From Nipponacmea schrenckii (taxonomy: Eukaryota; Mollusca; Gastropoda; Lottiidae), in the NCBI GenBank assembly GCA_030562195.1, contig CM060200.1:3906001-3970000 (forward strand): a DNA stretch of 64,000 nucleotides, written 5' to 3'. Positions 45,301 through 51,300 of the stretch are shown in pieces (the stretch's first letter is position 1; each line of letters opens with the position of its first letter). The position numbers and the translations under genes were made by a program. A model generated the notes under the pieces. It did not search any database, was not told where the DNA came from, and saw nothing but the letters and a program-made list of their open reading frames with translations.

Positions 45301-48300
45301 TAATTACGTCATTTGAGGCTAAACCGAAAGTAGAATTTTTTTTTTCACATTTTTTAAAAAATTATAATCATATCGCCTATCAACTGGTAAAGTTTCAAAA
45401 TTTTACCATTTATATTAAAGGAGAAATCACGGTCTGAAATTTTTGCCGATGACCCTTGAATATTGAATTGCAAATCGTGGGTAAAATATTTAACCTAATT
45501 GCATAAAACCTATAATTGTTAGTTGACAAATACATTGAAGTTTTCAAATCTGAAAATCCGGTCAAAATCGAACTGAAAATAAACTTGCTAAAGCAAAAAA
45601 ACCTCAACTTCCGGTTCTCACTTCCTGTCAGAGATAGAACTTCCGGTTTTGTTTTATTTGATGAAAGAAATCATTCTAAGATAAACTGTAGATTTAGAAT
45701 TTCTGCACCTTTTACCAGTTTGTCTGCAAACTCATCCAAGAATTAAAAAAAAAAAAAAATAAAATAATCCGAACGATTACAATACGTTTTCGCCAAAGTC
45801 GAAATACGTAATAATTTAAAGATGGGTCTGCAGATGAGTATGACAAATAAGTTTTCTGCAGTGACTCCCATCATCTTGTTTTAGTATAGACCAGGGGTAT
45901 TCAACCTTTTCTAGCAATGTCCCCATTTTTTGGAAAATGAAAAGTTTGCGTCCCCCATTTCATTTCAAATATTGACTTACCATATAACTGTCGAATAGAA
46001 TATATAAAAATTCATTAAACTAGCTTTATATAATCATATTGTATGATTATATTGCATTATATGATGTTCGCGCCCCCCAAAGTTTTTCGACGCCCCCAAA
46101 TTGGGGATGCGACCCCAAGGTTGAAAACCTCTTGTATAGACTATTGTTACATTCGTTAAACAAAGTATAGTATTGTTTTGGTCATAATTTTATGGTAGTC
46201 ATATAATGAGCTCAATCAAATATATTTTGTCTGTTTTAGAAATATCTGACGGCAGAGATACTTTAACGGAAGGTCGGCATGAATTAGATTTCTCTTTTGA
46301 ATTACCAATGGGGTGAGTTATGTCTCTTAGTTTAGTGAAATTAAATCCATTCAAAATATATGAATATTCATTAGATCATATCAATTTCCAAAAAAGTATC
46401 ATATGTACTAAACTATTACTAAACTATTATCTGTTTTATATCACAGTGGAATTTCTACATCATTTGAAGGGAAGCATGGTAGTGTAAGATATTGGTTGAA
46501 AGCTGAAATGGACAAACCTTGGTCTTTTAATCATAAAACTAAAAAAGCTTTTACAGTTATAAGTCCTATAGATATCAATAGAGCAGAATATCAGGTAAAA
46601 CATTTGACTTGCTCACTTAATTAAGTCTGAGAGTTATATAGCATAGAATACATATCCAGCCTTTAAATTTTTCAACTTGAACATCTTGTAACATGTAGTC
46701 AGAAGTGACTAATCTAAGTGACTTTTAATCTTTTCCTGTAAGAAATTTCAAATTTAGCTGTAAGCAGTACAGGGACCTGTCTAAAAAAATTTACATGTCT
46801 TGCACTTTAACTTTGTGGTAATTATTTTTAGACACAAGTAGAGAGTAGTGTAGAGAAAACATTATGTTGTTGGTTATGTACATCAGGACCTATATCTATA
46901 ACAGCTAGAACAGACAGACGTGGTTATTGTCCAGGTACATGTTTCCTTTATATGTGTTAATCATACTGAAACAAACAAAGGCTGTACTTATTCTAATAAA
47001 CCTACACCACTATGGTAGACTTAACAAGAAGGTGTTTTAGAGTTTGATTCATTTCTTTGTAGATAAATGTGGTATTTAGTTTAATCTCATTAATATGAAT
47101 ATATGTCAGTTGAATAGCTAGAAATTCAAATTAACATTCCCAACTAGGAAGAATGAATTTTTCAATTTTGCAAAGTAGTATTGGCTCTAATTGATCTCTA
47201 TTATCCGAGTAATCAGACCACTTTCCTTTTTTTAAAGAGATTTTTATATTTGCAGGTGAATCCATAGCAATCTCAGCTGAATTTGATAATCATTCTTCTA
47301 GAACAGTCATACCTTATGCTACATTGTATCAGACACAAGCTTTCTTTGCTAGTGGTAAATCTCGTGTCCGGAGAACCAAGTTTACTGTTTTAACAGGACT
47401 ACCTGTAGCTCCTGGTACTCGAGGAAGCTGGGACTCACAGTTACTGAAAATACCAGCAGTATCTCCTTCTATTATGAATTGTTGTGTTATGAAAGTTGAT
47501 TATTTTGTTAAGGTAGGTATGAGTATGAGCCAGTGGGTTCAAAGGGAAGTCTTAGATTTGAAAACTTGCTACAGATTCACTATGTGCCTTACTCTTTTCT
47601 GTACCAAACTGACTGCTGCTGCTAAAGTAGACATATTAGAATGTCTTTTTTCTTACTTACAAAGCTATGATGTACTTAAAGACTTAATTATTTTCTCCAG
47701 GTTGCTCTACATATCCCTGGTGCCTATAATCTCCGAATACAACTTCCAATTGTCATAGGAACAGTACCGTTTAGAAGAGCTCAAACTTATCATTTTATGG
47801 AGTCACGTTATTATAGAGAAACACAAGCTCAGTATGCCATGGATTTCTTGCCAATACCACCACCATATAGAGAAACCATTACACCTCCACCTCCATTTGA
47901 TGGTAAGTTTCACCTGCCCATGAACTTGAAATTTCACTTGAGGAATCTCTAAGCTATGTTGAAAGATTATTAATAACATTGTAAATTTTATAATCATGTT
48001 TAGAAAGACTTGATATACTATATATCAATTAATTATTATAAAACGACCAGTGTTTGCTTTAAGTACACATTATGTAATAAATATTGTTATTATAGAACCA
48101 CCAACCTATACTGAAAGTATTGAGTGTTACTAATAAATATTGTTATTATAGAACCACCAACCTATACTGAAAGAATTGGGTGTTACTAATAAATATTGTT
48201 ATAATAGAACCATCAACCTATACTGAAAGAATTGGGTGTTACTAATAAATATTGTTATTATAGAACCATCAACCTATACTGAAAGTATTTGGTGTTACTA

Positions 48301-51300
48301 ATAAGTATTGTTATTATAGAACCACCAACCTATACTGAAAGTATTGGGTGTTACTAATAAATATTGTTATTATAGAACCACCAACCTATACTGAAAGTAT
48401 TGGGTGTTACTAATAAGTATTGTTATTATAGAACCACCAACCTATACTGAAAGTATTGGGTGTTACTAATAAATATTGTTATTATAGAACCACCAACCTT
48501 TACTGAAAGTATTGGGTGTTACTAATAAATATTGTTATTATAGAACCACCAACCTATACTGAAAGTATTGGGTGTTACTAATAAGTATTGTTATTATAGA
48601 ACCACCAACCTATACTGAAAGTATTGGGTGTTACTAATAAGTATTGTTATTATAGAACCACCAACCTATACTGAAAGTATTGGGTGTTACTAATAATATT
48701 GTTATTATAGAACCACCAACCTATACTGAAAGTATTGGGTGTTACTAATAAATATTGTTATTATAGAACCACCAACCTATACTGAAAGTATTGGGTGTTA
48801 CTAATAATATTGTTATTATAGAACCACCAACCTATACTGAAAGTATTGGGTGTTACTAATAAATATTGTTATTATAGAACCACCAACCTATACTGAAGTA
48901 TGGGTGTTACTAAAATATTGTTATTATAGAACCACCAACTATACTGAAAGTATTGGGTGTTCTAAAATATTGTTATTATAGAACCACCAACCTATACTGA
49001 AAGTATTGGGTGTTACTAATAAATATTGTTATTATAGAACCACCAACCTATACTGAAAGTATTGGGTGTTACTAAAAATATTGTTATTATAGAACCACCA
49101 ACCTATACTGAAAGAATTGGGTGTTACTAATAAATATTGTTATTATAGAACCACCAACCCATACTGAAAGTATATGGTGTTACTAATTATTGTTATTATA
49201 GAACCACCAACCTATACTGAAAGTATTGGGTGTTACTAATAAATATTGTTATTATAGAACCACCAACCTATACTGAAAGTATTGGGTGTTACTAATTAAT
49301 ATTGTTATTATAGAACCACCAACCTATACTGAAAGTATTGGGTGTTACTAATAAATATTGTTATTATAGAACCACCAACCTATACTGAAAGTATTGGGTG
49401 TTACTAATAAGTATCGTTATTATAGAACCACCAACCTATACTGAAAGTATTGGGTGTTACTAAAAAATATTGTTATTATAGAACCACCAACCTATACTGA
49501 AAGTATTGGGTGTTACTAATAAGTATTGTTATTATAGAACCACCAACCTATACTGAAAGCATTGGGTGTTACTAATAAATATTGTTATTATAGAACCACC
49601 AACCTATACTGAAAGTATTTGGTGTTACTAATAAATATTGTAATTATAGAACCACCAACCTATACTGAAAGTATTGGGTGTTACTAATAAGTATTGTTAT
49701 TATAGAACCACCAACCTATACTGAAAGTATTGGGTGTTACTAATAGATATTGTTATTATAGAACCACCAACCTATACTGAAAGAATTGGGTGTTACTAAT
49801 AAGTATTGTTATTATAGAACCACCAACCTATACCGAAAGTATTGGGTGTTACTAATAAATATTGTTATTATAGAACCACCAACCTACACTGAAAGTATTG
49901 GGTGTTACTAATAAATATTGTTATTATAGAACCACCAACCTATACTGAAAGTATTGGGTGTTACTAATAAATATTGTTATTATAGAACCACCAACCTATA
50001 CTGAAAGTATTGGGTGTTACTAATAAATATTGTTATTATAGAACCACCAACCTATACTGAAAGTATATGGTGTTACTAATTATTGTTATTATAGAACCAC
50101 CACCCTATACTGAAAGAATTGGGTGTTACTAATAAGTATTGTTATTATAGAACCACCAACCTATACTGAAAGTATTGGGTGTTACTAATAAATATTGTTA
50201 TTATAGAACCACCAACCTATACTGAAAGTATTGGGTGTTACTAATAAATATTGTTATTATAGAACCACCAACCTATACTGAAAGTATTTGGTGTTACTAA
50301 TTATTGTTATTATAGAACCACCAACCTATACTGAAAGTATTGGGTGTTACTAATAAGTATTGTTATTATAGAACCACCAACCTATACCGAAAGTATCGGT
50401 TGTTACTAATAAATATTGTTATTATAGAACCACCAACCTACACTGAAAGTATTGGGTGTTACTAATAAATATTGTTATTATAGAACCACCAACCTATACT
50501 GAAAGTATTGGGTGTTACTAATAAATATTGTTATTATAGAACCACCAACCTATACTGAAAGAATTGGGTGTTACTAATAAATATTGTTATTATAGAACCA
50601 CCAACCTATGCTGAAAGTATTGGGTGTTACTAATTATTGTTATTATAGAACCACCAACCTATACTGAAAGTATTGGGTGTTACTAATAAATATTGTTATT
50701 ATAGAACCACCAACCTATGCTGAAAGTATTGGGGGAGCAGTAGATATATGTGAAGATGATGATGGAGATCCTAGTGCGAATATGGGTGATTTAACTTATA
50801 CACCCATGTATAACTATGTTTATGATTATAGGCCACCACCAGCTTATTCTGAGGTAAAATTGATTTTTACAAACAGCCTTTCAAAAGCCAATTGTTTGAT
50901 TCATTGCATATACATGCGCATACATGGGTCTCAGTACCTTTGTTCTTGCCTGACATTGATCAGTAACAAGAAGACAATAGTTTTGATGCATGTTATTGGA
51001 CATTAATATTGTCAATATTTTGACAGTTGAAGTGGCAGTGTCAGGCCTAAAAAATAAGGAACCCATGACTTAATGGGGGAATAAGGGCAAGGTGGAATTC
51101 AAAATGTAGCAACTCTGAGGAGGCATCCTGGGGCCAATTTGACTCAAATTGAACTTCTGTACTCCGCTGGTGCCTCCATTGTATTTTGATAGCATAATTG
51201 TATAGCCTACTGTCTTTGTTAATATACCAGCAGTACATAAACACAAATTTAATTAATTTATTTAAATTCTCTGGTGCACTGTCAAATAAAATAGGCCGAA

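Follow-up and report, generated by a model that had tools for sequence, protein, structure and literature searches.

A 56-base tandem array of splice acceptors before an alpha-arrestin exon of the limpet Nipponacmea schrenckii, most likely a near-neutral accident

Acceptors that compete for one donor are familiar from NAGNAG tandem acceptors, which lie three bases apart, and from the poison sites of alternative splicing coupled to nonsense-mediated decay (AS-NMD), where choice of an upstream site brings a premature stop. Artificially duplicated 3' splice sites were reportedly studied by Reed and Maniatis in 1986. The present locus is a natural array of acceptors in an alpha-arrestin (ARRDC3-like) gene of the limpet Nipponacmea schrenckii, located in a stretch of 64,000 nucleotides (GenBank assembly GCA_030562195.1, contig CM060200.1, positions 3,906,001 to 3,970,000, forward strand), hereafter called the window in its full length. 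Here too the acceptors would compete for one donor and an upstream choice would bring a premature stop; unlike NAGNAG sites, the limpet sites are near-identical and recur every 56 bases, and use of the limpet decoys is hypothetical. The array is a head-to-tail series of near-identical units within the minisatellite range (about 10-100 bases, high identity), with deletions in an A/T run such as slippage would give, and differs from other minisatellites in that its unit spans the intron-exon boundary of a conserved gene. It is real and anatomically unusual, and is most likely a near-neutral accident. In the globin constructs of PMC5389562 (available portion) a 3' splice site with a short exon stub likewise precedes a copy of itself that has the full exon; the limpet arrangement is natural and has 48 sites rather than two. 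APOB exon 26, with pseudo splice sites and tandem silencers (PMC3640928, available portion), also combines many unused splice-like sites with correct splicing; its sites lie inside one exon and follow a degenerate consensus, whereas the limpet sites copy the real one. A thin literature search turned up no minisatellite, variable number tandem repeat or other tandem repeat at a splice acceptor among the titles and abstract openings listed.

The array is reported by Tandem Repeats Finder (TRF) at 48075-50733 with a period of 56 bases, 47.9 copies and 95% matches. Acceptors were defined by splitting the array at AG|AACCA, which gives 48: the real acceptor at 50705 and 47 decoys, whose first exon-like bases run from 48096 (first decoy) to 50649 (last). 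The array had been noticed in a sequence-only reading, which placed about 46 decoys before the arrestin exon; the array itself stands, and the count is corrected to 47. The 47 spacings between acceptors are 56 bases (38 times), 55 (three), 53 (four) and 52 (two), and therefore no acceptor has been lost through mutation. The parts of the array are as follows.

48075 to 48095, plus strand: end of the left flank common to the unit (TAATAAATATTGTTATTATAG), with TATG rather than TGTTAC before it
48096 to 50704, plus strand: 47 decoy units, each of 29 exon-like bases and 27 intron-like bases ending in AG; consensus AACCACCAACCTATACTGAAAGTATTGGGTGTTACTAATAAATATTGTTATTATAG
48878 to 48981, plus strand: units 15 and 16, with eight bases deleted and zero substitutions; possible consensus errors

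When the assembly (399 Mb, 1093 contigs) was searched with the unit, the only high-identity match was the array locus; 13 others had 65-72% identity.

The host gene has eight coding exons, and its frame is uninterrupted over 424 residues, with introns that begin in GT and end in AG.

39342 to 51548, plus strand: alpha-arrestin (ARRDC3-like) gene, eight coding exons, 424 residues
39342-39600, 46240-46312, 46447-46594 and 46832-46934, plus strand: coding exons 1-4
47256-47512, 47701-47902, 50705-50853 and 51465-51548, plus strand: coding exons 5-8
47701 to 47902, plus strand: exon 6, with PPPY at 47857-47868 and the donor GTAAGT at 47903
50705 to 50853, plus strand: real exon 7, 149 bases, with PPTY at 50707-50718, PPAY at 50836-50847 and the donor GTAAAA at 50854
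51465 to 51548, plus strand: last coding exon, acidic tail and stop

Both arrestin domains are recognized (Arrestin_N, PF00339, E = 3.2e-37; Arrestin_C, PF02752, E = 1.2e-33), and relatives of solved structure, found by sequence, are TXNIP, ARRDC3 and a protein named ARRestin Domain protein. The closest relative among the matches listed is a protein of the limpet Patella caerulea (94% identity). PPxY motifs are found in the C-terminal part, as in ARRDC3-like alpha-arrestins: PPPY in exon 6, PPTY at the start of exon 7 and PPAY near its end. PPPY and PPTY are invariant in 13 of 13 aligned proteins, as is GAV, and PPAY is missing from four of the 12 relatives (P0004, P0005, P0006 and P0008). In mammalian ARRDC3 the tyrosine of the last PPxY switches between c-Src and WWP2 binding, according to the available portion of PMC12213294. 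A product of decoy splicing would lose PPAY, the acidic tail and an 11-residue stretch well conserved in the alignment. The loss of PPAY and tail was foreseen correctly from the letters, the number of motifs was not: the protein has three, and two (PPPY and PPTY) would be kept. In 11 of 12 short relatives (12 of 14 matches examined) the match ends right after PPPPF[DE]G, which is the end of exon 6 here; the position of the intron between exons 6 and 7 therefore looks old.

The AG acceptor is intact in all 47 units, as first claimed, and the other signals said to recur in every unit do so in most. Exact TACTAAT is found in 43 of 47 units and TACTAA in 46; acceptor 1 is without TACTAAT and is preceded by TATGTAAT. 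On the plus strand of the window outside the array, TACTAAT occurs six times and TACTAA 24 times. The putative branch A lies 14-17 bases before the A of AG in the 46 units with TACTAA. Read in the frame of exon 6, 45 of 47 units encode a 12-residue peptide (the consensus or a variant) followed by a stop, while small deletions shift the frame of units 15 and 16, giving 34 and 23 residues until the stop. PPxY is intact in 42 of 47 units and broken in units 3, 4, 8, 16 and 20. Judged by sequence alone, the units carry a complete acceptor, with branch-like motif and AG, and each copy would locally amount to a complete 3' splice site. As to donors that could close a micro-exon inside a unit, GTGTTA occurs 45 times in the array; a scan for GTAAG and GTGAGT gave none within it.

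Of the alternatives first offered, the evidence favors a neutral satellite with a trapped splice site: the array is probably a near-neutral minisatellite that trapped the acceptor, with the last acceptor mostly used. Most transcripts would use 50705, since it is the sole acceptor that starts the full 149-base exon bounded by a donor; a decoy would offer 29 exon-like bases and then another intron-like stretch. This restriction of the full exon to the last acceptor would be the reason why the array is tolerated, and decoys, where used, would lead to a premature stop and mainly to decay. With the donor at 47903, the intron would measure 193 nt if it ended at the first decoy and 2802 nt if it ended at the real site, and the resulting exon would be 2758 nt (first decoy), 205 nt (last decoy) or 149 nt (real site). 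Exon definition and exon sequence favor the real site, donor nearness and the order of transcription the early decoys. When a globin acceptor was duplicated and the upstream copy carried 14, 55 or 205 exon bases, all splicing went to the distal site (PMC5389562, available portion). By analogy, this precedent supports a correct choice in the limpet, possibly at a cost in efficiency.

Several observations weigh against this account. Over positions -27 to +14, 17 of 47 decoys are identical to the real site, 18 differ by one mismatch and 12 by more. The 193-nt intron to the first decoy is similar to the neighboring introns (134, 237, 321 and 188 nt), and the first decoy is transcribed 2.6 kb ahead of the real site, where the pyrimidine fraction (0.47) is lower than at the gene's six other acceptors. 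AG and TACTAA are spared by substitutions, as described below. In the available portion of PMC5389562, the duplicated globin acceptor was spliced very inefficiently in vitro; when the pre-mRNA had two strong 3' sites, about half of the molecules had both of them occupied. Such pre-mRNA was spliced poorly, and adding a competitor oligonucleotide increased splicing several-fold. Since the globin sites were spliced inefficiently, the array could cost output. The same observations on decoy identity, intron length and co-occupied globin sites speak for a harmful array, in which near-identical acceptors compete or jam the early spliceosome and cause much mis-splicing, retention or decay, leaving less arrestin and serving no selected function. 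The tail of the protein encoded by exons 7-8 (50705-51548), which diverges from Patella more than the rest does, could be counted on that side: with Haliotis as outgroup, unique changes in the window sequence and in Patella number 7:2 for the tail and 6:5 for the body, and three other outgroups give 5:2, 5:2 and 4:2 for the tail, all small numbers. A harmful array is nevertheless unlikely, as the reading frame remains open throughout, PPAY and the acidic tail are preserved and the globin constructs with weak sites used the distal site only (PMC5389562, available portion).

RNA structure that would hide the decoys was considered and rejected, because the folds were no better than those of shuffled sequences (z of 0.35, 0.18, -0.22 and 1.14); the fold of the first 1000 bases was not unusual either (z of 1.75). 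Rfam gave no match in the window. As a natural test of the choice that cells make among near-identical splice sites, the locus is unusually clean. Classical tests of the rules for 3' sites (first come first served, donor nearness, exon definition) relied on two artificial sites; in the limpet gene 48 almost identical ones stand before one donor-bounded exon and the correct product is conserved, and RNA junctions could tell which rule wins and how much error is tolerated.

Nonsense-mediated decay is expected when a stop comes too early and lies more than about 50-55 nt ahead of an exon junction. All 47 decoy stops lie 167-2720 nt upstream of the exon-7 donor; decoy transcripts would therefore more probably be degraded than translated into a shortened arrestin, provided that they do not end within the array. 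The last proviso is the basis of another reading, in which the units serve as alternative last exons, each with an acceptor, a PPTY stretch, a stop and AATAAA, and the array acts as a length-tuned isoform dial. If so, transcripts spliced to a decoy, then cleaved and polyadenylated within the array, would evade decay. They would yield a stable arrestin with PPPY and PPTY that lacks PPAY and the acidic tail, and copy number would determine how much of it is made. The poly(A) signal hexamer AATAAA is indeed present in 25 of 47 units. Since it is common elsewhere (110 times on the plus strand of the window), the window is A/T rich (G+C = 0.31) and the left flank has it too, its occurrence in the units is not independent evidence. 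The reading is very doubtful. No protein ending in the decoy peptide was seen in the 12 of 14 matches examined, and none exceeded 94% identity among the 120 of 536 matches listed, in a database that merges relatives within 90%. The species itself seems to be absent from that database, because the best match of a second gene of the window reaches only 42%; these negatives therefore say little.

Selection on the units was tested from their substitutions. The 47 units contain 43 substitutions of 21 types, and 13 units equal the consensus; an alignment made without the AG|AACCA anchor likewise gives 21 types. The codons of PPTY are not spared (5 change types versus 4.5 expected), 14 change types fall in the 29 exon-like positions versus 7 in the 27 intron-like positions, and the synonymous excess in the coding frame is not significant (6 of 14 types versus 27.5% expected, P = 0.16). 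AG and TACTAA together have none of the 21 types versus 3.0 expected (P = 0.027), which may hint at constraint on splicing signals. Taken singly, the signals give AG 0 versus 0.75 expected types (P = 0.43), TACTAAT 1 versus 2.6 (P = 0.215), the stop 0 versus 1.1 (P = 0.29) and the acceptor core 0 versus 2.25 (P = 0.075). The two longest change-free runs, of 9 bases each, fall on the acceptor and on TGTTACTAA (P = 0.025 for the second). When the same test was applied to 16 other testable arrays of the genome, one reached 0.025 or less on that measure and three reached 0.05 or less on the longest run; six further arrays had too few or too many changes for the clustering test. The support for selection is weak; other arrays can show like clustering. 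No constraint is seen on the peptide, and a slight hint of it on the splicing signals.

Avoidance of the signals by substitutions is thus borne out, weakly, for AG and TACTAA and not for the PPTY codons, and the conservation first remarked on is complete for AG and partial for PPTY (42 of 47), the branch motif (43) and the stop (45). An isoform device, as had been suggested, finds no support in the changes to the PPTY codons, the exon-like half or the synonymous sites, nor in decoy stops placed where decay is expected. A selected splicing device in a broader sense, in which regulated use of decoys lowers output through decay or yields a shorter arrestin, would draw on AG in 47 of 47 units, TACTAA in 46 of 47, the joint sparing of the two and the change-free runs on the acceptor and its companion. 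It is very improbable in view of the PPTY codons, the loss of PPxY in five of 47 units, the unremarkable values of AG, TACTAAT and stop singly, and the other arrays that cluster likewise.

The flanks bear on the origin of the unit. To the left of unit 1 the sequence passes into ordinary intron (CACATTATG|TAATAAATATTG), and the right flank of the last copy continues into the conserved exon (TATTGGG|GGAGCAG). The joint between units reads TATTGGG|TGTTAC|TAATAA, and the six bases TGTTAC are found at that place in neither flank. TACTAAT is thus a product of the repeat joint, because the joint bases TGTTAC complete it, and the joint supplies the motif before the acceptors after the first, the real one included; the real acceptor takes its TACTAAT from unit 47. 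The locus shows that a branch-like motif can arise at the junction of repeats and that a growing repeat can incorporate a splice site. The real exon has GCT (Ala, nearly invariant in the alignment), whereas ACT is found in 46 of 47 units and GCT in unit 46. The last part of intron 6, together with the 29 bases that open exon 7, would have been duplicated in tandem, and the duplication would have grown into 47 copies; the copies and flanks are seen directly, and growth was presumably by ordinary minisatellite turnover. Of 23 deleted bases, 19 are at unit positions 38-42; eight are in units 15 and 16 and may be sequencing errors. Duplication of units in blocks was also examined and rejected: lags 16 and 20 gave P of 0.0185 and 0.0485, but the value over all 23 lags was 0.52.

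The window contains a gap of exactly 500 N at 15505-16004, probably a scaffolding join. An assembly artefact in the copy number or in part of the array would be in keeping with this gap and with units 15 and 16, whose eight deletions without substitution resemble uncorrected long-read errors. It is scarcely likely, since scattered private and shared variants set the units apart, the flanks join intron and exon cleanly, and arrays of this size are common in the assembly.

The abundance of arrays was estimated from 20 stretches of 10 kb (200 kb) at round coordinates on 11 contigs. Tandem repeats with a period of at least 10 make up 13.1% of the bases, and six arrays have a period of at least 40 and at least 10 copies, which extrapolates to about 12,000 such arrays in the genome from this small sample. 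With so large a supply some arrays are bound to meet splice sites, and this is the main reason why accident is preferred over design. Seven of the 13 weaker matches in the own-genome search, whose loci were read, belong to one dispersed 54-base family that is similar to the arrestin unit along its length.

L002:1418-2043, L003:1411-2639, L004:1455-2245 and L005:622-2364, on several contigs: 54-base tandem family (GGTGTTATAAGAGATACTCTCCTATAGAAGCACTGGCCTAGGTCACAAGTATTA)
L006:1501-2147, L007:1501-2489 and L008:1400-1986: further loci of the 54-base tandem family (GGTGTTATAAGAGATACTCTCCTATAGAAGCACTGGCCTAGGTCACAAGTATTA)

The arrestin array could be kin of, or the source for, this satellite, which would be compatible with the other readings and would link the gene's splice site to a dispersed satellite. 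All seven loci align along the length of the unit, with consensus scores from 40 to 52; one consensus, scoring 44, compares with a shuffle mean of 16.3 (sd 3.4, P = 2.5e-5). The family was, however, picked as the best of the whole genome, where extrapolation from 17 in 264 kb gives about 25,700 array rows with periods of 45-65, and against 62 other array rows (30-120 bases) P is only 0.0087, a row of period 107 scoring 43.5. Half of the unit is also conserved coding sequence; the satellite would either resemble this sequence by coincidence or descend from it. The kinship is rather improbable and is regarded as unproven.

Other features of the window include cyclophilin-like frames and further repeats. 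The open frames at 59675-61498 resemble exons of what is presumably a cyclophilin-type gene; a Pfam scan of the first of these frames gave no match. For a 105-base array at 20148-22060, TRF also reports a period of 315 bases, and the array may be a higher-order repeat. Three arrays of 146-161 bases (35609-36606, 36692-37030 and 41955-42505) have a similar consensus and each contain ATGAAACTTG; two are upstream of the arrestin gene and one is in its first intron. A long open frame at 33846-35405 has one database match (42% identity, Patella vulgata) and contains, at 34157-34318, 18-base repeats that encode a stretch rich in Met, Gly and Pro.

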